Shown in pieces: positions 2,614 to 10,628 of a stretch of DNA of 10,714 nt. Within the stretch, counting starts at the first letter, position 1, and each line of letters starts with the position of its first letter. Origin of the DNA: an uncultured Clostridium sp. (GTDB lineage: Bacteria > Bacillota > Clostridia > Clostridiales > Clostridiaceae); assembly GCA_946575275.1 (NCBI GenBank), contig CAMNZV010000034.1, positions 1-10,714 on the forward strand, read 5' to 3'. The notes under the pieces were generated by a model that saw only the letters and a program-made list of their open reading frames with translations, searched no databases and was not told where the DNA came from. Made by a program: the position numbers and the translations under genes.

Positions 2614-3663
2614 TCATCCCACCACTCTCTTAATTTGATATATTTTATCTTGGAACTCAACTGAATCACCAACTCGTCTGCCTAATAGCATTTTTACTAG
2701 AGGTGGAATTATATTAGTATCACGAATATAATCTACCTCAATTTTTTTTATTTCTTCTGTCTCAATTACTTTTACTTCTACTTTTTGACCAATTGCAACA
2801 TAAACCTCTTCTTCTTTATCCTCAATTTTTCCATCATCTTCATTGACCGTTTCTACAATATCATATGATGTTTCCTCCGGCTCTATCCCTTGTTTATCAC
2901 CTTTGATAATAGCACAAATATTTTCAATCATCATTTCTGCAATATCATCTTCGCTTAAGCAGTCAAGTATAAAACCGCCGCCTACAGCATTTAATAATTG
3001 TAAAGAAGGTCTAATGTGTTCTCTTAGTGTAATTTGAACTCCCCCATCTTTAAAATACTTAATTCCATTAACGATACCATTTAGAATCGTAGGATTTGAT
3101 GAGAAATTGTTGCTATAAAAGATATCTGATATTTTACTACTAATATCATTGCTCCCTATTATATCAAGTTTCTCAAAATGATTAGTGTTAGTTTCATCAA
3201 AGGTATTTCTTCCAACCCACCAACACTTTGCCAGTGTATTTCTATAAAGCCCAGCACGTGCACCTCCTGAAAAGAAAAAACGTGATTTTATATTAGAAAC
3301 AGCTTCTTTTGGGGTTTTAGGTTGTTTGATATTATAATCCCACCTCTTCCTAACATAATTATAAAATACTGAATGACATAAACCTGCCCACAATCTCTCG
3401 TCACTTGCTTGTGATTCATTCAAAAACGAAAGATTTTTATATATAATTTTGCAGTTATTGAATTCAATATCACCGATTGACATATCAGAATCAAGATCAG
3501 AAAGTTGAAAATCTGGCACTTCCTTATATTCTATAAATGGGTCACCATCACATATTGTCCAAATCCACTTATTATCCTTCTCGGTAAAATATTTATTATA
3601 TACGAAATCAATATTATCTTTAAGAATATCCAGTGCTTCTTTTTTCATGAAATATAGTTTCAT
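2614..3663 (-). CDS. DUF6339-like protein with GreA/GreB C-terminal-like domain (349 aa)
   Basis: Third gene of the GHKL operon. The central region resembles DUF6339: DERLWAGLCHSVFYNYVRKRW (88-108), RFFFSGGARAGLYRNTLAKCWW (128-149) and a late LLNAVGGGFILDCL (223-236). After an acidic linker (about 262-287), residues 286-349 match the shape of the GreA/GreB C-terminal domain: VAIGQKVEVKVIE, then PPLVKMLLGRRVGDSVEF and YQIKRV, parallel to GreA's SPLG-ALLGK-VGD and final EYEI. In GreA that domain sits on RNA polymerase, so contact with polymerase or another complex is an inference. A frame extends to 3696, but ATG at 3663 is preferred: it has GAGGAGG 9 nt upstream and begins one base after the previous stop, indicating coupled translation. 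No nuclease motif is obvious. The domain calls are by eye. Confidence 0.7.
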   Translation of the reverse strand: MKLYFMKKEALDILKDNIDFVYNKYFTEKDNKWIWTICDGDPFIEYKEVPDFQLSDLDSDMSIGDIEFNNCKIIYKNLSFLNESQASDERLWAGLCHSVFYNYVRKRWDYNIKQPKTPKEAVSNIKSRFFFSGGARAGLYRNTLAKCWWVGRNTFDETNTNHFEKLDIIGSNDISSKISDIFYSNNFSSNPTILNGIVNGIKYFKDGGVQITLREHIRPSLQLLNAVGGGFILDCLSEDDIAEMMIENICAIIKGDKQGIEPEETSYDIVETVNEDDGKIEDKEEEVYVAIGQKVEVKVIETEEIKKIEVDYIRDTNIIPPLVKMLLGRRVGDSVEFQDKIYQIKRVVG

Positions 3664-3664
3664 T

Positions 3665-4549
3665 TTAGATATCCTCCTCGTCTTCCATGTTTTCAAATAA
3701 TTCAGTAAACATGGATAATGCTTTGCTTAATGGTAATTCCATTGCCTCTTGAGCTAATTGAACTGATGTTTTCGATTCATCCCTTACCTCATCAATGAAT
3801 TTTACACCTCGTTTTTCATAGGCTTTACTCAAAGAAATATACCAGGCTTTCCCTTGGTTTGCTTCTATACCGGTTTCCTGTTTTAACTCTTCAAATACAT
3901 ATACTAGGGCAGGGAAAACTATCATAGAGTTCAATATTGGTTGAAACTGATTTTTTTTACAAAAACGTGAGTATGTAGAATATTCTTGTGTACCCAAACC
4001 TATTTTAATTTGTGCTGAATCGATATTGACGTCCATAGGCTTTTCTTCAGTAGTTAATCGCTTATAAACCATAAAAATTGAACTTGCACTTGTTAATTCC
4101 TCATAATTCTTGACAATATCTAATGTTGGCAAATTCTTATATCCAAGTATACTTCCTTTTGAAAAATCAAATGAAATACCAGTATAATCATCATTCCAAT
4201 CAGAATTTATATAATTATTAATACTTTCTTTAGAAATAATCAAAGCCACAATTTCTAATTTACCATATATTCTACCAACAGGAATATCTATACTTGATTG
4301 TTCAGTTATCGAATGAAGTGTTGTTCTAAATGCTGTGTTGGAACACTCAATATGGATTACATATTCTGCCTTACCATCAATAATTAGATTTCGAAGTTCA
4401 TCGTTATCTAGAGTGAAGTTGAATTCAAGTTGCAAATTGTTAACACCGTTCATCCTATATTGTAGATCCACATCAAAAACAGATGAATTGTAATCATCTT
4501 TTTCTTCACTCAATACTGGGTAAGTATATAATCGTTTAGTTATGTTCAT
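3665..4549 (-). CDS. Unrecognised operon partner of the GHKL ATPase (294 aa)
   Basis: I do not recognise this family. Residues about 35-190 look beta-rich, with alternating hydrophobics (LQLEFNFTL, YVIHIECSNTAFRTTL, VGRIYGKLEIVALII, DSAQIKIGLG) and the stretch WNDDYTGISFDFSKGSILGY in the middle. Residues about 200-290 look helical and end in an acidic tail (ENMEDEEDI). No signal peptide, membrane segment, zinc cluster or clear catalytic motif is visible. It overlaps the end of the ATPase gene by 14 nt and stops one base before the next start, so the three products are probably made together and may form a complex. An ATG at 4555 is possible, but GGAGG sits only 3 nt from it and 9 nt from the ATG at 4549, which favours the latter. 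A structural or adaptor role is inferred only from position and composition. Confidence 0.8.
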   Translation of the reverse strand: MNITKRLYTYPVLSEEKDDYNSSVFDVDLQYRMNGVNNLQLEFNFTLDNDELRNLIIDGKAEYVIHIECSNTAFRTTLHSITEQSSIDIPVGRIYGKLEIVALIISKESINNYINSDWNDDYTGISFDFSKGSILGYKNLPTLDIVKNYEELTSASSIFMVYKRLTTEEKPMDVNIDSAQIKIGLGTQEYSTYSRFCKKNQFQPILNSMIVFPALVYVFEELKQETGIEANQGKAWYISLSKAYEKRGVKFIDEVRDESKTSVQLAQEAMELPLSKALSMFTELFENMEDEEDI

Positions 4550-6446
4550 ATACATTTACCTCCATAGCATAATCTCTTGAATCCACTAAAGAAAATTCAA
4601 TCATTACTTTTTCATTACCTTTTAAATTTAAAAAACTTATTCCAACGGAACTGCATTCTATATTTTCACAGGCAGAAATACCAGTAGCTGATTTGACTTT
4701 AAGTTTATTCGATTTACCATTTTCACCTACAGTAACTATTTCAATGTGACCAGCTTGTACATCTCTTGGCACTTCAAAAGAAGCTCTGAATTTATTATTT
4801 ACAATCTTCATAATACGAATATTTTTTAATGCTTGATGGGTATCGCCACTATATCTCTCATGAACAATATCTCGACCACCTTGAGAAGCAGTTCCTTTAT
4901 GTTTATCTTTTTTTGTTCTTCGACGTTTGCCGTCTAAAATTCTTGTTGTTGGAAACCCACCTTGTCCAACATTTCCCTGCGTATCTCTACTCTTTGATTG
5001 CCCTTCACCTTCGTTACCGTGAAACAGACCTTTGGGCTTGCTTTGAGATATTACTCTTGGTTGGATTAGGATATCACCAATAGTGTTATGTAAATCTTCT
5101 TTTTTATTATCACCATGTTGGGTTGCTGATGAAGATTCTTTTTGAAGAACGCTACTAAGTCCTTCTACTTCTATTTCTTCATCACTAGAATATTCACCCA
5201 AACCTAGAATCGTATCTCTAACCCACTGTTTCAACTCATCATGATATTCTTTGGCTTGGGTTGGATTGTTTGTATACCTACCTGGGACCCATTTATCATG
5301 TGAAGGCGTTTCCATTTCTCTGAAATATTCATTTAACTCTTTTCCTTGCATTTCCAAAAGACCGGAAAAAGAAATTAAACGAGATATATTTCCTATCGTT
5401 AGCAATTTCATTCCAGAAGTTCGAGTAACAAGTACTTTTCTATTTAGCTTTTCTTCTGCATCAACGAGAACACTAAGTTTTAATGTTCCTAACCCGTGAA
5501 AATCTTTTGTAAACACCTTAGTTTCAGGGTTAGATAAAACTTTGTAATAACAATAAGTTTGTCTTATTTTGGTTTTATAACGTTCCATAAATGTGGGCAA
5601 GTTAGCATCATTTATCTTCCTAGTATTTACAGATACCACAAGTTTATTTTTATAAATTGCCATAAGGAAATTTTCTAGTAATTCGCTAATTACATCATCT
5701 TCCCATGTTGTTCTTGCATTAAATCCATAGACAAAAACATCTGTACCCACTACATCTCTATTTTGCAGATTATCAAGTTCTACAATTCCTTTCACCGGTA
5801 AATTGCCACTAGTATTGCCATAATACCCAAATCCCGTAGTCATAGTATTAAGTGTATCTGTCTCATCTTCAGGAAATGAAATAAATCTTGAAACACCTTG
5901 GGCTGCTATTTCATTATTAGAATTTAATGTTCTATAAAAGACCAATCTATAATCTGAATTACAAAAAGGTGCATTTTTCCCTATTCCAAAAGCACCAGCT
6001 TTATCACCAGTCTTAGTTGCACCTCCATCAATTTTTGTTAATGCATTCCAACCATCATCACTATCTCCATAAGGATCAATTAATCCTGTAGTATTATAAT
6101 CACTTATTCTAAGTACAAAAGTTTTTTCATCTTCTATTGCATTTATTGCCTTTCTTAAATATACAATTGTTTTTTCACTTTTCCGATTTGAGTAATAGTT
6201 GTATGCTTTAAGTAATTTTTCCTTATATGTTTTGTATCCAGGTATATCATTGGATTGAATTGTATAACGTTCGAATTCTACAACGACCTCCGATGAAGAA
6301 CCATCTGGGATAGCATCTAAAGAATTTTGACATATTTCTCTTGCTAAAGATTGAATTTCCGTACCAGTAAACGTTTCAATACCAGCATCTGAAATACCTC
6401 TCGTTTGACCACACCCATTATTAGGGAAATTCCATTCAATATTCAT
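4536..6446 (-). CDS. MORC/MutL-like GHKL ATPase (636 aa)
   Basis: Residues about 1-260 form a GHKL ATP-binding domain. The N box is REICQNSLDA with E37, N41 and D44; the G1 box is ISDYNTTGL with D116 and G121; the glycine-rich lid is GAFGIGKNAPF at 151-161. A transducer-like region follows (to about 415) with LVTRTSGMKLL at 339-349, in the place of the basic loop of MutL/Hsp90/MORC proteins. Residues 425-535 are a low-complexity basic linker (KRRRTKKDKHK), and about 541-636 is a beta-sandwich-like C-terminal domain. Proteins of this type are ATP-gated clamps found in prokaryotic conflict loci, including the MutL-like component of MZA systems. No DNA endonuclease motif of MutL is visible. GTG at 6455 is in frame, but ATG at 6446 with GAGGTG 7 nt upstream is the better start. 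It is the first gene of a coupled operon with a strong promoter. Confidence 0.85.
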   Translation of the reverse strand: MNIEWNFPNNGCGQTRGISDAGIETFTGTEIQSLAREICQNSLDAIPDGSSSEVVVEFERYTIQSNDIPGYKTYKEKLLKAYNYYSNRKSEKTIVYLRKAINAIEDEKTFVLRISDYNTTGLIDPYGDSDDGWNALTKIDGGATKTGDKAGAFGIGKNAPFCNSDYRLVFYRTLNSNNEIAAQGVSRFISFPEDETDTLNTMTTGFGYYGNTSGNLPVKGIVELDNLQNRDVVGTDVFVYGFNARTTWEDDVISELLENFLMAIYKNKLVVSVNTRKINDANLPTFMERYKTKIRQTYCYYKVLSNPETKVFTKDFHGLGTLKLSVLVDAEEKLNRKVLVTRTSGMKLLTIGNISRLISFSGLLEMQGKELNEYFREMETPSHDKWVPGRYTNNPTQAKEYHDELKQWVRDTILGLGEYSSDEEIEVEGLSSVLQKESSSATQHGDNKKEDLHNTIGDILIQPRVISQSKPKGLFHGNEGEGQSKSRDTQGNVGQGGFPTTRILDGKRRRTKKDKHKGTASQGGRDIVHERYSGDTHQALKNIRIMKIVNNKFRASFEVPRDVQAGHIEIVTVGENGKSNKLKVKSATGISACENIECSSVGISFLNLKGNEKVMIEFSLVDSRDYAMEVNVYEHN

Positions 6447-6456
6447 TTTGTTCACC

Positions 6457-6528
6457 TCAATGTAACTTTATCATCTTTTTCTCCTGACCTTGAAATTTAC
6501 TTTTGCAACTTTTTAGTTCTTGTTCCAT
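6457..6528 (-). CDS. Possible leader peptide (23 aa) ahead of the ATPase gene
   Basis: A short frame starts at CCATGG, reads MEQELKSCKSKFQGQEKK and ends MIKLH at TGA 6457-6459, inside the ribosome binding site region of the ATPase gene. The inner ATG (MIKLH) has its own AGGAG 6 nt upstream and would make a five-residue peptide. Its stop overlaps the GAGGTG that serves the ATPase, so ribosomes ending here could control initiation there. Composition gives no function, and it may be chance in an AT-rich leader. Confidence 0.3.
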   Translation of the reverse strand: MEQELKSCKSKFQGQEKKMIKLH

Positions 6529-6625
6529 GGCACAGAATATTTTTTATATCTATTTCGTCATATTCATAAGTTAACGTATTTGACCAATTGTTTTGCAAGC
6601 TAATCATATAAATTATTTTAACTGT

Positions 6626-6654
6626 ATTGTAAATATTTTCTGTATATTTGTCAA
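6626..6654 (-). promoter_or_regulatory. Sigma-A-type promoter of the GHKL operon
   Basis: On the minus strand TTGACA (complement of 6649-6654) is followed after exactly 17 nt by TACAAT (complement of 6626-6631), a near-consensus housekeeping promoter. Transcription would start near 6619, giving a leader of about 170 nt before the ATG at 6446. That leader is AT-rich and holds the short frame at 6457-6528. I see no known riboswitch in it. The operon therefore does not depend on readthrough from the recombinase genes. Confidence 0.75.
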
Positions 6655-6713: not shown

Positions 6714-6743
6714 AAATAAAAAACACCCTACATTTCTGTAAGG
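6714..6743 (-). terminator. Rho-independent terminator of the recombinase operon
   Basis: On the minus strand CCTTACA (complement of 6737-6743) pairs with TGTAGGG (complement of 6726-6732) over 7 bp with one G/T pair and a GAAA tetraloop. TGTTTTTTATTTT follows. It lies 24 nt after the end of the last recombinase gene and separates it from the GHKL promoter. A competing hairpin shares part of this stem (see findings). Confidence 0.8.
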
Positions 6744-6766
6744 TTATAACTTCTGTAACCTTTCTT

Positions 6767-8332
6767 TTATCTTTCAACATCCACGCTTGTGCCGGATTTG
6801 AACTCCACCATGAATTTCTCCTCATAAACCGTTACCTTTTCAACCATTCGCCTCACAAGGAATTCATCGTATTCTTCTATCTGCTCCATCTGCTCTGTAA
6901 GGAACTCTTGCATCTCGGCAATTCGCTGTTTCAAACCTTCTCTTTCCGCATTCTCTGCCATAGCATTCTGCTTTAGTTCTCTCAGATGTTCTATCTCATC
7001 AGCAAGGTCATTATAATCCTTTTTAGCATTTGCTCGTTTCAACAGTTCCTTTTGCAATTCTTCCAGTTTGGCATTGATGCTCTCCATAGAACTTTCATCT
7101 TCCAAAGCAAGTACTGATGCAATGTTCTGCTCTAAAGCTACAAGCATATCATCCTTGCCACCAAGTGCCATATTGATAGCTTTTATTACAGCCTCTTGTA
7201 GTTCCGTTTCCCCAACTGTAAGTGCATCACAGCGTTCTGGACCATGTTCCACTCGGGTGACACATCGCCAAACAAAGGAACGCTTACCTCTGTTATTCCA
7301 AGCAATTCTACGATATATGTCACCACACTTTGGGCAATAGACAATGCTTGAAAGGGCATACTTACTGCTATAAACCCTTTTCTTTCGGTCAGCACCACTA
7401 TGGAGATTAACTCTTCTTAGCATTTCCTCCTGCACCTGCATATAAAGGTCTCGGGGAATGATGGGTTCATGGCTATTTTCTACATAATACTGTGGAACGA
7501 TACCGTTATTTTTAACCCGCTTTTTCGTAAGTACATCCACCGTGTATGTCTTCTGCAAAAGGGCATCACCGATGTATTTCTCATTTTTTAGGATTTTCTT
7601 TATAGTTTCTGGTCTCCATCTTGCTTTACCAGCTGCAGTTAGGATACCATCTGATTCCAAACTTTCTCCGATTTGTTTCAGGCTTGCTCCTTGCAAATAC
7701 TCCAAATAAATACGTTTTACAACCTCTGCCTCAGTAGGTTCAATAATCAGATGACCTTCATCATCTTTGGTATATCCCATAAAACGATTGTGGTTCACCT
7801 GTACCTCACCATTTTGGTAACGGAACTGCAATCCCAGCTTTACGTTCTTGCTTAAGGATTCCGATTCTTGTTGGGCAAGGCTTGCCATAATTGTAAGTAG
7901 AATCTCTCCCTTAGAATCTAAGCTGTTGATATTTTCTTTTTCGAAGTATACGGAAATGTTCTTTTCCTTTAATAATCTAATGTATTTCAGGCAGTCCAGA
8001 GTATTTCTCGAAAATCTGCTTATGGACTTTGTAATAATCATGTCAATGTTGCCTGCCATACACTCTTCAATCATTCTATTAAACTCATCACGCTTTTTAG
8101 TGTTAGTACCACTTATCCCATCATCTGCAAATACACCGCCTAGTTGCCACTCTTCATTTTTTTGTATAAAATTTGTGTAGTGCTCTATCTGTGCCTCATA
8201 GCTTGTAGCTTGCTCATCACTATCGGTACTTACACGGCAATAGGCTGCAACTCTAAGCTTTGGCTTGTCTTCCATTTTTACAGTATTGCCTACTCGTCTT
8301 CGTGCTGGGATAACTGTTATGCTTTTACTCAT
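6767..8332 (-). CDS. Large serine recombinase (521 aa)
   Basis: The N-terminal resolvase/invertase catalytic domain (about 26-165) shows YCRVST with nucleophile S35, DDGISGT at 70-76 and KSISRFSRN at 102-110 with the active-site arginines. A recombinase domain follows (about 180-300). A zinc ribbon (C333-x2-C336, C357, C368) and a long coiled coil (about 400-490, [13 protein letters not shown] and later heptads) complete the usual large serine integrase plan, and the length is normal. The enzyme should cut and rejoin attP and attB for integration or excision through a Ser-DNA intermediate. ATG at 8332 is chosen over an in-frame upstream ATG at 8350: it overlaps the previous gene by 8 nt (ATGAGTAA) and fits family starts ([13 protein letters not shown]). 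Sampled stretches look less AT-rich than the GHKL operon, suggesting a different history. Confidence 0.93.
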
Positions 8333-8753
8333 TTTCTGCCACCACCTCACTTTCTATCAAGCCATATGCATATTTAGCTTGTTCAAAAGGGTCAGTATAT
8401 TTTAACTGTACCCTTGGCATGGTAAAATGCACCATTGGCTTTGGTTTTTCCTGCTTTTTAAGTTCTCGAATTCTTCCAAGAGAACCTGCCCTTGCAATTC
8501 TCATTTCTTCAGCTTTATCAAATGTTTCTTTATCAATTATGGAAGGATAGAAATCATCGCCAAGGTAATACCTCTTTCTAAGCATCATTCCAGAACTACT
8601 ATGAGATAACTTTAATCCTGCATTTTCAGCAGCTACCTTAAGTGCCAAGCCGGAAATATACCCTTTGTAAAAATTTCTAATATTTTCAGCTTGTTCTTCA
8701 TCAACCACTGCTTTTCCATCTATAATTTTATATCCATAAGGTATGTGTGCCAT
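8325..8753 (-). CDS. Recombinase-domain protein without a catalytic domain (142 aa)
   Basis: The sequence begins directly with [19 protein letters not shown], the motif that opens the recombinase (DNA-binding) domain of large serine recombinases; compare TPYGYDYIDGEMVVSKEQA in the neighbouring enzyme. It continues with [20 protein letters not shown], equivalent to the NEKYVGD block. There is no resolvase catalytic domain, no nucleophilic serine motif and no zinc ribbon. The C-terminal third (about 100-142) is unlike its neighbours. It starts 2 nt after the stop of the upstream recombinase and overlaps the downstream one by 8 nt, so the three are made together. It is probably an accessory DNA-binding partner, for example a directionality or specificity factor; this is inference. 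An intact ribosome binding site and a clean frame argue against a simple degraded remnant. Confidence 0.8.
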
Positions 8754-8755
8754 TA

Positions 8756-10318
8756 TTATCCCATCCTTTCCCTAAGTTCTAATCCACATTTTAATAGGAA
8801 TATAATTTCCTCTCTTGAAACAACTGTAATCTTATCCACGTGGGCAATGAATACTTCATCTTCATACTCCTTCAGCATTTCACTTCCAGAAACATATTTT
8901 ATTAGCTTTTCCAAAGCATCAAATTTTGTTCTATCACCACTTACTGAATGTATCAGCTTGTTTTTTTCAGTATCTAACATTTCTTTTTCCTGAATCAAGG
9001 TGTTGTTTTCACTGTTAAATAGTGCAGGTTCTAAAATGCCACTTGCCATTAGACTTGTAAGTACCTGCCTTTGTTCCATATTCTTTTCAAGCTTTGTTTC
9101 ATACTCTTGTATCTGCAATAATCGATCTTTATCATTTAGTCCTTGTAAGCTGCGAAGTAGTGGTTTTAGCACTACTTCGTGTGAAAAAATCAGCTTATTC
9201 ATCATGGTGGTAAAAGCAATTTCTACATCTTCTTCCCTAATAAATAGCATAGAGCATTCTTTTACATTGGATAAATGCTTTTGGCAACACCAAGCTACAT
9301 ATTTATTATTTCCATTTGTATGACTTCTTCGCTTAAAGATACTTCCACATTCAGAACATTTTAACTTCCCTGAAAATGGATATCTGTTTTGATACTTACC
9401 AATTCCTTTTACAATACCCTTTTCCTTCCCACGCTGATTAATTATCTCATCCACCGTTTGAAAATCTTCTCGACTAATGATAGCCTCATGGTGATTTTGA
9501 ATATAATATTGGTCTTTCTCACCATAATTGGTATGTCTGTTAAAATTGTCATCTGTGTAGGTCTTTTGCAAAATAACATCTCCAACATACTTTTCATTTG
9601 ATAACATTCCTCTGATAGTTGCTGAAGCCCATTTATTACCCTTTTTAGGTTTAATGCCTTTTTCATTTAATTCATCAGCAATCTTTCCTGTACCTCTACC
9701 AGCTAGTGCCTCAGCAAATATAAATTTAACAACCTTTGCTTGTTCTTTACTTACTACCATTTCTCCATCTATATAATCATATCCATAGGGTGTACTAGAC
9801 ATTTTATAAGTTCCGTTTTGGAATCGTCTTTGCACTGACCATTTATTATTTTCTGCAATACATACTGATTCACTTTCTGCAATTCCACTTAGGATGGATA
9901 ACATTAATTCACTTTCCATTGATTCTGTATTCAAATTTTCCTTCTCAAAATAAATGTAAACCCCAATATCTACTAGCTTACGCACTAGTTCCAAACAATC
10001 TGTAGTATTCCTTGAAAATCTACTGATAGACTTTGTCACAATAAAATCTATCTTCTTTTGTTCACAGTCTTTTATTAACCTTAGAAGTTCAGTTCGTTTT
10101 TCTTTCTTTGTGCCTGATATACCCTCATCATAATAGATACCTGCAAACTCCCAGTTAGGATTTGCTTTTATATAGGTTTCGTAATGTGATTTCTGAGTTT
10201 CAAGACTTATAATTTGTTCACCACTTGTGGTAGATACCCTACAATAAGCCGCTACTCTAAGTTTAGATTTTTCAAAAGTATCCACTTTATTTTCTGGTAT
10301 TTTAGTTATCTTTCTCAA
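8756..10318 (-). CDS. Large serine recombinase (520 aa), TTG start
   Basis: The catalytic domain (about 18-165) has YCRVST with nucleophile S29, DEGISGT at 64-70 and KSISRFSRN at 96-104. The recombinase domain (about 175-295) includes PYGYDYIDG and NEKYVGDVILQKTYT. The zinc ribbon uses C321-x2-C324, C344 or C345, and C355, followed by a coiled-coil region (about 385-460). Length and order are normal for a large serine integrase. The start codon is TTG (10316-10318), supported by AGGTGAG a few bases upstream and by alignment with the second recombinase over [11 protein letters not shown]. It is the first recombinase of the trio. It is clearly a paralogue of, but well diverged from, the 521-aa enzyme, so the two may recognise different half-sites or form hetero-oligomers, as the CcrA/CcrB pair does. 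Confidence 0.93.
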   Translation of the reverse strand: MRKITKIPENKVDTFEKSKLRVAAYCRVSTTSGEQIISLETQKSHYETYIKANPNWEFAGIYYDEGISGTKKEKRTELLRLIKDCEQKKIDFIVTKSISRFSRNTTDCLELVRKLVDIGVYIYFEKENLNTESMESELMLSILSGIAESESVCIAENNKWSVQRRFQNGTYKMSSTPYGYDYIDGEMVVSKEQAKVVKFIFAEALAGRGTGKIADELNEKGIKPKKGNKWASATIRGMLSNEKYVGDVILQKTYTDDNFNRHTNYGEKDQYYIQNHHEAIISREDFQTVDEIINQRGKEKGIVKGIGKYQNRYPFSGKLKCSECGSIFKRRSHTNGNNKYVAWCCQKHLSNVKECSMLFIREEDVEIAFTTMMNKLIFSHEVVLKPLLRSLQGLNDKDRLLQIQEYETKLEKNMEQRQVLTSLMASGILEPALFNSENNTLIQEKEMLDTEKNKLIHSVSGDRTKFDALEKLIKYVSGSEMLKEYEDEVFIAHVDKITVVSREEIIFLLKCGLELRERMG

Positions 10319-10370: not shown

Positions 10371-10598
10371 TCAAGGACTTAAGGGCATAATCTCAGCTAA
10401 AAAAGGGGAGAAGGTTTTACGATTTAATTCTGTTATTTTATTAAATTCATCTATACTTATAATACCTTTTTCAAACATAGATTTTAATATTTTTTCTGCT
10501 CTGAAATAATCAACCTCCTTTTGTAATTCCTCAGTTGTAATTTTTCTTTTAGAATTAGAAACATTTATTTCTTCTTCAATTACTTTTGTTACCTTCAT
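10371..10598 (-). CDS. SHOCT-like small protein (75 aa)
   Basis: Residues about 22-60 (EELQKEVDYFRAEKILKS, FEKGIISIDEFNKI) match the SHOCT pattern of two short helices around a K/E-G-I-I/T-x-x-E-F core. This module often occurs in small proteins beside recombinases and mobile-element genes. ATG at 10598 is chosen because GGAGG lies 8 nt upstream; a further in-frame ATG at 10613 overlaps that ribosome binding site and is unlikely. It lies 52 nt before the first recombinase on the same strand and is probably co-transcribed. It may modulate recombinase activity or assembly; the sequence does not show how. No membrane segment is seen. Confidence 0.75.
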   Translation of the reverse strand: MKVTKVIEEEINVSNSKRKITTEELQKEVDYFRAEKILKSMFEKGIISIDEFNKITELNRKTFSPFLAEIMPLSP

Positions 10599-10628
10599 AT
10601 TTAAAACCTCCATATCTTAAAATATTGC

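Follow-up and report, generated by a model that had tools for sequence, protein, structure and literature searches.

The window, by which we mean the whole 10,714-nucleotide (nt) stretch analyzed here (contig CAMNZV010000034.1, C34 in our numbering, from the 71% complete genome of an uncultured Clostridium sp., assembly GCA_946575275.1), carries on its minus strand a tightly packed three-gene operon, A-B-C, that almost certainly belongs to PDC-M33, a candidate system of PADLOC (PADLOC-DB 2.0.0; the name stands for phage defence candidate, multi-gene 33), as judged from sequence matches. Based on the company kept by these genes and on their distribution, we consider the locus to be a defence module against mobile DNA, with a probability of roughly 0.75. 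A preliminary description had presented the trio, consisting of a GHKL ATPase, an orphan protein, and a DUF6339/GreA-C protein, as an undescribed defence system. This reading stands in part: the trio is a defence candidate, but a known one, and the family of its ATPase was named in 2008. The claim of novelty falls since the trio is already catalogued as PDC-M33, a match to a named system being what the description itself had listed as refuting it. What is new is the assignment of PDC-M33A to paraMORC2, the small first gene of the operon and its loss, the existence of a sister clade that has diverged, the finding that the end of the DUF6339 protein is exchangeable, the linkage to restriction-modification (RM) genes, compared with a small control, and the block of recombinases.

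Gene A (positions 4536 to 6446; 636 residues), gene B (3665 to 4549; 294 residues), and gene C (2614 to 3663; 349 residues) matched the models PDC-M33A (PDLC04582, E = 9.3e-204), PDC-M33B (PDLC04583, E = 2.2e-98), and PDC-M33C (PDLC04585, E = 6.1e-190), respectively, each over its full length and in the order and adjacency of the PADLOC system. NCBIfam offered no good match for any of the three proteins, and gene C is the sole member of the trio recognized by Pfam. Genes A and B share 14 nt. ATG 3663, not the upstream TTG 3696, was taken as the start of gene C because comparison of homologues supports it, and genes B and C are therefore separated, by 1 nt; the overlapping frames of the preliminary description thus hold for A/B but not for B/C. 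A Shine-Dalgarno-like sequence precedes each gene, that of gene B being located within the final codons of gene A. The ratios of nonsynonymous to synonymous substitution rates (dN/dS), determined by comparison with Clostridium algidicarnis, were 0.24, 0.14, and 0.24 for A, B, and C, respectively. All three genes are under purifying selection, and the locus is far above chance. The trio reported in the preliminary description was thus confirmed as real.

Analysis of 398 genomes of the phylum revealed a full-length A in eight, the same eight that encode DUF6339, with B in between; a ninth A match was marginal (4.8e-5). After exclusion of the source genome, the seven A and the seven DUF6339 genomes coincide (p about 3e-15). 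Close relatives of A, B, and C were found together in six of 225 genomes of the order, with an interrupted A in one of these (G117), and a seventh DUF6339 match in this sample, a fragment of 33 residues, lay at the end of a contig and was not accompanied by A. Eight further genomes of the order encode a distant A adjoining a distant B (the A of G123 is a broken fragment), and three (G064, G038, and G176) contain A-like pieces only. The co-occurrence of homologues suggested as a check in the preliminary description was thus observed for eight of eight genomes in the larger sample and six of six close trios in the smaller one. At one locus of the diverged clade (L038), the PDC-M33 models scored far lower, with matches for A (1.7e-60) and B (1.9e-15) and none for C. 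The third gene was scanned for five distant loci, with DUF6339 detected below threshold in two (18.2 and 17.6 bits) and not detected in three; judging from these sequences, the distant clade likely has a true gene C. The trio is also present on plasmids in eight genera, and the plasmid counts for A are lower bounds, the search having missed at least one A (Priestia megaterium).

Gene A very probably encodes a GHKL ATPase of the paraMORC2 type, which would act as the motor of the locus. The N (E37-xxx-N41), G1 (D116...G121), and lid (G151xxG154xG156) motifs reported earlier were confirmed in a deep alignment of 31 rows, in which E37 was present in all and N41, D116, G121, G151, G154, and G156 were each present in 30. 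The codon for Glu37 is located at positions 6338 to 6336. An ExxxH motif (Glu379...His383; 5312 to 5298) was found in 30 of the 31 deep rows, the exception being a 408-residue protein (L042), and in all 40 close rows. The GHKL residues and ExxxH are conserved from Clostridia as far as an archaeal plasmid. This combination is that of paraMORC2 as described by Iyer, Abhiman, and Aravind in 2008 (PMC2292703; here and below, statements on published articles refer to parts of their text): gene A shares the N-terminal GHKL motifs, the ExxxH signature, and the absence of the MORC motif, and relatives of the trio share the Gram-positive spread and the RM company. Differences are that the parts of that article covered mention no pair formed by B and DUF6339 and that RM genes are lacking in the vicinity of the window copy. 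In paraMORC2, ExxxH belongs to an S5 domain that follows the GHKL domain. MORC proper differs from gene A by the GhXhhpXXRhl motif of its S5 domain, which was found in none of the 31 gene A rows. Comparison of the deep gene A profile with 24 MutL proteins by hhalign gave an alignment of 265 columns (E = 0.0011, score 36.2, probability 20.5), versus scores of at most 21.2 for eight column-shuffled controls; a shallower profile reached only E = 0.023. Neither Pfam nor NCBIfam gave a match for gene A, and no PDB sequence matched it with an E value below 1. A GHKL ATPase domain is likewise present in the phage defence protein VcSduA of Shedu type I-D (PMC12137116), but is fused there to a DUF4263 nuclease, and a Pfam scan detected no DUF4263 in A, B, or C. 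The covered parts of the literature on paraMORC revealed no functional study of paraMORC2.

The AlphaFold2 model of gene B (mean pLDDT 86.1, pTM 0.52) predicts a beta-sandwich in the N-terminal half and a helical C-terminal half, and its fold matches were limited to weak FN3/beta-sandwich ones. A ParB-B fusion protein (P0234) was attributed to chimeric assembly, since it lacks the first third of B. Gene C (model pLDDT 85.3, pTM 0.74) combines a DUF6339 domain (2929 to 3465; PF19866, E = 5.6e-50) with a GreA/Gfh1 C-terminal-like domain (2617 to 2808), the fold of which was recognized by structural comparison in the last ~65 residues. The preliminary description of a DUF6339/GreA-C protein is upheld for DUF6339 and, by fold, for the GreA-like end, but the GreA C-terminal part scored 16.6 bits in Pfam, below the cut-off of 26.9. 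The N-terminal part of GreA and GreB is a coiled coil with an acidic tip. The likeness of gene C to GreA, GreB, and Gfh1 concerns the fold of the C-terminal domain, whereas its N-terminal part is DUF6339, modelled as a larger helical domain and not as a coiled coil. The GreA/Gfh1-like domain was found at the end of 10 of the 34 gene C proteins scanned (the two halves of the split L005 gene being counted as one); elsewhere, this end consists of a weak helix-turn-helix match (L043) or of no recognized domain. Thus, as far as the sequences tell, the C-terminal end of the DUF6339 protein is exchangeable between branches.

Such variability is consistent with swapped effector or targeting parts and could fit abortive infection, in which A would sense phage DNA or replication and set free B or C to arrest the cell as a toxin, for example by acting on RNA polymerase via the GreA-like domain. 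AbiG neighbors beside the trio of Lactococcus and the inactivation of trio genes in several hosts, namely A of L047, B of an L. salivarius plasmid, and C of L005, which is split, also point in this direction. However, the deep alignments of B and C revealed no conserved set of catalytic residues, and none of the matches listed for the two proteins has a toxin fold. We consider abortive infection an unlikely explanation of the trio. In L047, gene A is interrupted by ~3 kb (9972 to 12952 of that locus) with two genes, one for a Cache/MCP chemotaxis receptor and one for a protein of 349 residues without a Pfam match. In the L. salivarius megaplasmid (L122), a group II intron reverse transcriptase is located within gene B (10510 to 11892), and A is annotated in two pieces.

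RM genes were found near the plasmid trio in eight of eight genera versus none of seven control stretches of the same plasmids (one stretch for each plasmid, chosen according to its position, the 31-kb plasmid of Deinococcus being excepted). The regions viewed represent all eight genera and 12 records in total, from a list of 23 and from later lists, one Enterococcus; the table of plasmid genes used describes itself as incomplete. In Planococcus, Deinococcus, Arthrobacter, Paenarthrobacter, and Priestia, the trio adjoins Dcm together with Vsr or restriction enzymes. This arrangement raises the possibility that A, B, and C are accessories of RM systems, acting with the adjoining cytosine methylase, Vsr, and restriction enzyme to direct cleavage or repair to sites with or without modification, by analogy with MutL acting with Vsr or MutH. 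Iyer et al. placed paraMORCs with methylases, Vsr, and RE-fold nucleases and predicted that they act in RM systems (PMC2292703). However, the partner is variable (C5, N6-adenine, or type IIL), some loci, the window among them, have none, and the order of the trio genes is constant whichever the partner. Moreover, C5 methylases accounted for only 5 of 130 neighbors (3 of 75 plus 2 of 55) in the other close loci, among the families listed; these tallies are counts per family, not per locus, for the best 25 families of each set, and are based on scans of 120 of 138 open reading frames (ORFs) plus two ORFs of the L047 insert in the first set and of 55 of 55 in the second. A role as an RM accessory appears rather unlikely to us. 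As to the neighborhood check raised by the preliminary description, the plasmids offer RM company, but housekeeping neighbors are frequent elsewhere.

In some loci, a small gene of ~75 codons directly precedes A, its products displaying 35 to 77% identity to the C. algidicarnis copy. Of the 36 trio loci, three of which are incomplete at one end (L008, L009, and L119, the last showing A only), 13 have an intact copy. A remnant of this gene is present in the window (6455 to 6625, minus strand): profile pieces were detected in two frames (E = 3.4e-6 and 6e-6), together with a further profile match (E = 2.1e-6) and a tblastn match to the C. algidicarnis protein (E = 1e-9). Alignment with C. algidicarnis revealed that the stretch spanning the start region of the small gene is missing in the window and that the frame is broken. 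A promoter, TTGACA-17-TACAAT (6654 to 6626, minus strand), is kept in C. algidicarnis, where it precedes an intact small gene. The strong promoter attributed to the trio in the preliminary description does exist, but, by its sequence and position, it is the promoter of a four-gene operon (small gene, A, B, and C). Because this promoter is retained, the trio can presumably still be transcribed, from an operon deprived of its first gene. In the phylum sample, two of the seven other trios have the small gene, as do three genomes for which no A was listed (one match being weak), and it is therefore accessory. Another copy is located near a contig start (L107, 177 to 458), with no A in the next 1.5 kb. 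No PADLOC model matched the single copy scanned (L053), and the PDC-M33 models, which cover A, B, and C, leave the small gene outside. The small gene would matter for any bench test in which the three genes only are cloned.

Upstream of the operon, and separated from it by a terminator-like hairpin with a similar sequence in C. algidicarnis (6725 to 6744), the window contains a block of minus-strand genes encoding large serine recombinase 1 (6767 to 8350; PF00239, 3.5e-34, with PF07508 and PF13408), a short recombinase-like protein of 142 residues (8325 to 8753; weak PF07508, CcrA model E = 2.7e-6), large serine recombinase 2 (8756 to 10318; PF00239, 9.7e-32), and, at its head, a SHOCT_2 protein (10371 to 10613; PF20612, 7.8e-17). 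The proximity of a serine-recombinase module (6767 to 10318), already reported, was therefore verified. The same block precedes the small gene, A, B, and C in L047, with identities of 82 to 83%, 63%, 63%, and 55%, respectively, and a second recombinase arrangement precedes the four genes in an IMG/VR contig (L120). Recombinase relics occupy the same place in C. algidicarnis and in two Lachnoanaerobaculum genomes. In total, serine recombinases or their relics precede the operon in 6 of the 36 loci, including the window. The best explanation of these sequences is that the cassette of the window's branch moves with large serine recombinases. The recombinase 1 region (6767 to 8500) is richer in GC (~0.38 to 0.42) than the trio and the remaining recombinases (~0.29 to 0.37), which suggests that the block is of mosaic origin. 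Shared carriage by phages was considered and rejected, with one weak phage record for A and none for a distant C.

The recombinases, together with the presence of the trio on plasmids in eight genera, might also indicate that the trio is not a defence module and serves the mobile element itself, for example by stabilizing it or by controlling its recombinases. However, the other 30 of the 36 loci gave no such match, apart from L119, where a weak match (20% identity, E = 9e-6) was left out of the count, and RM company is the commoner theme in the plasmids. Service to a mobile element is therefore, in our view, very unlikely.

Two minus-strand genes located downstream of the trio were rejected as parts of the system since, in tblastn searches (E = 1e-3), they had no relative beyond the source genome among the loci compared. 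The first (443 to 1696) encodes a 417-residue DUF4839 protein with a weak zinc-ribbon-like start and, from reading of its sequence, a likely membrane segment; it was not found beside the other trios compared. The second (1907 to 2284) encodes a 125-residue DUF3990/PARP-like (ADP-ribosyltransferase-type) protein with partial matches to PADLOC PDC-M13B and M13A and no relative in the other trio loci compared; it is possibly a shortened toxin-like gene.

Several observations weigh against our overall explanation of the locus. PDC systems are candidates (PMC11514479) found by embedding, mostly awaiting experiments (PMC12988326, which deals mainly with single-gene ones), and we know of no antiphage test of PDC-M33. 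No paper naming PDC-M33 or DUF6339 was found in the literature searched, and, as the coverage of GHKL in phage defence was partial, a recent functional paper may exist under another name. The profile support for the GHKL assignment is modest, and 24 of the 34 gene C proteins scanned lack the GreA-like domain, so that docking on RNA polymerase cannot be the common mechanism. DUF6339 occurs without a listed A on plasmid records of Listeria (64), Enterococcus (3), Aerococcus, and Halomicrobium; in one Enterococcus plasmid (L058, 6019 to 6578), it is in two short pieces with transposases nearby, and the Listeria matches among those listed are likewise in two pieces. Many neighbors in other loci are housekeeping genes, and the window itself contains no RM gene. 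Finally, the window copy may be impaired because the first gene of its operon is broken.

With respect to the mode of action of the defence module, we tentatively propose, at less than even odds, an ATP-driven clamp that, having no nuclease of its own, silences or marks foreign DNA. A would dimerize upon ATP binding and close on DNA as a clamp, B would be an adaptor or a sensor, and C would bind nucleic acid or RNA polymerase, in the window's branch via its GreA-like C-terminal domain. The loaded complex would then compact or silence foreign DNA, or pass it to a neighboring restriction system, without cutting. Silencing rather than cutting is suggested because no nuclease was seen, B and C having no conserved catalytic set. 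In the ancestral operon of the branch, the small helical product of the first gene, lost in the window copy, may have been a clamp-loading regulator.

Taken to its full extent, a four-protein, nuclease-free ATP clamp, composed of the small helical protein as loader, the paraMORC2 ATPase, the beta-sandwich protein as adaptor, and DUF6339, would be a bacterial MORC-type machine for compacting or silencing invading DNA, with exchangeable targeting domains carried by DUF6339, a model that we regard as quite unlikely. If it were true, the GreA-like domain would, in the window's branch, steer the clamp to the RNA polymerase transcribing foreign DNA, and PDC-M33 would represent a functioning equivalent, in prokaryotes, of the MORC silencing of eukaryotes. 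The locus raises the question of whether a MORC-like clamp without a nuclease defends a bacterium and whether such a clamp silences DNA. This question is testable because the operon is compact, with three or four genes, and is carried by plasmids of hosts that are easy to grow, such as Lactococcus and Priestia.
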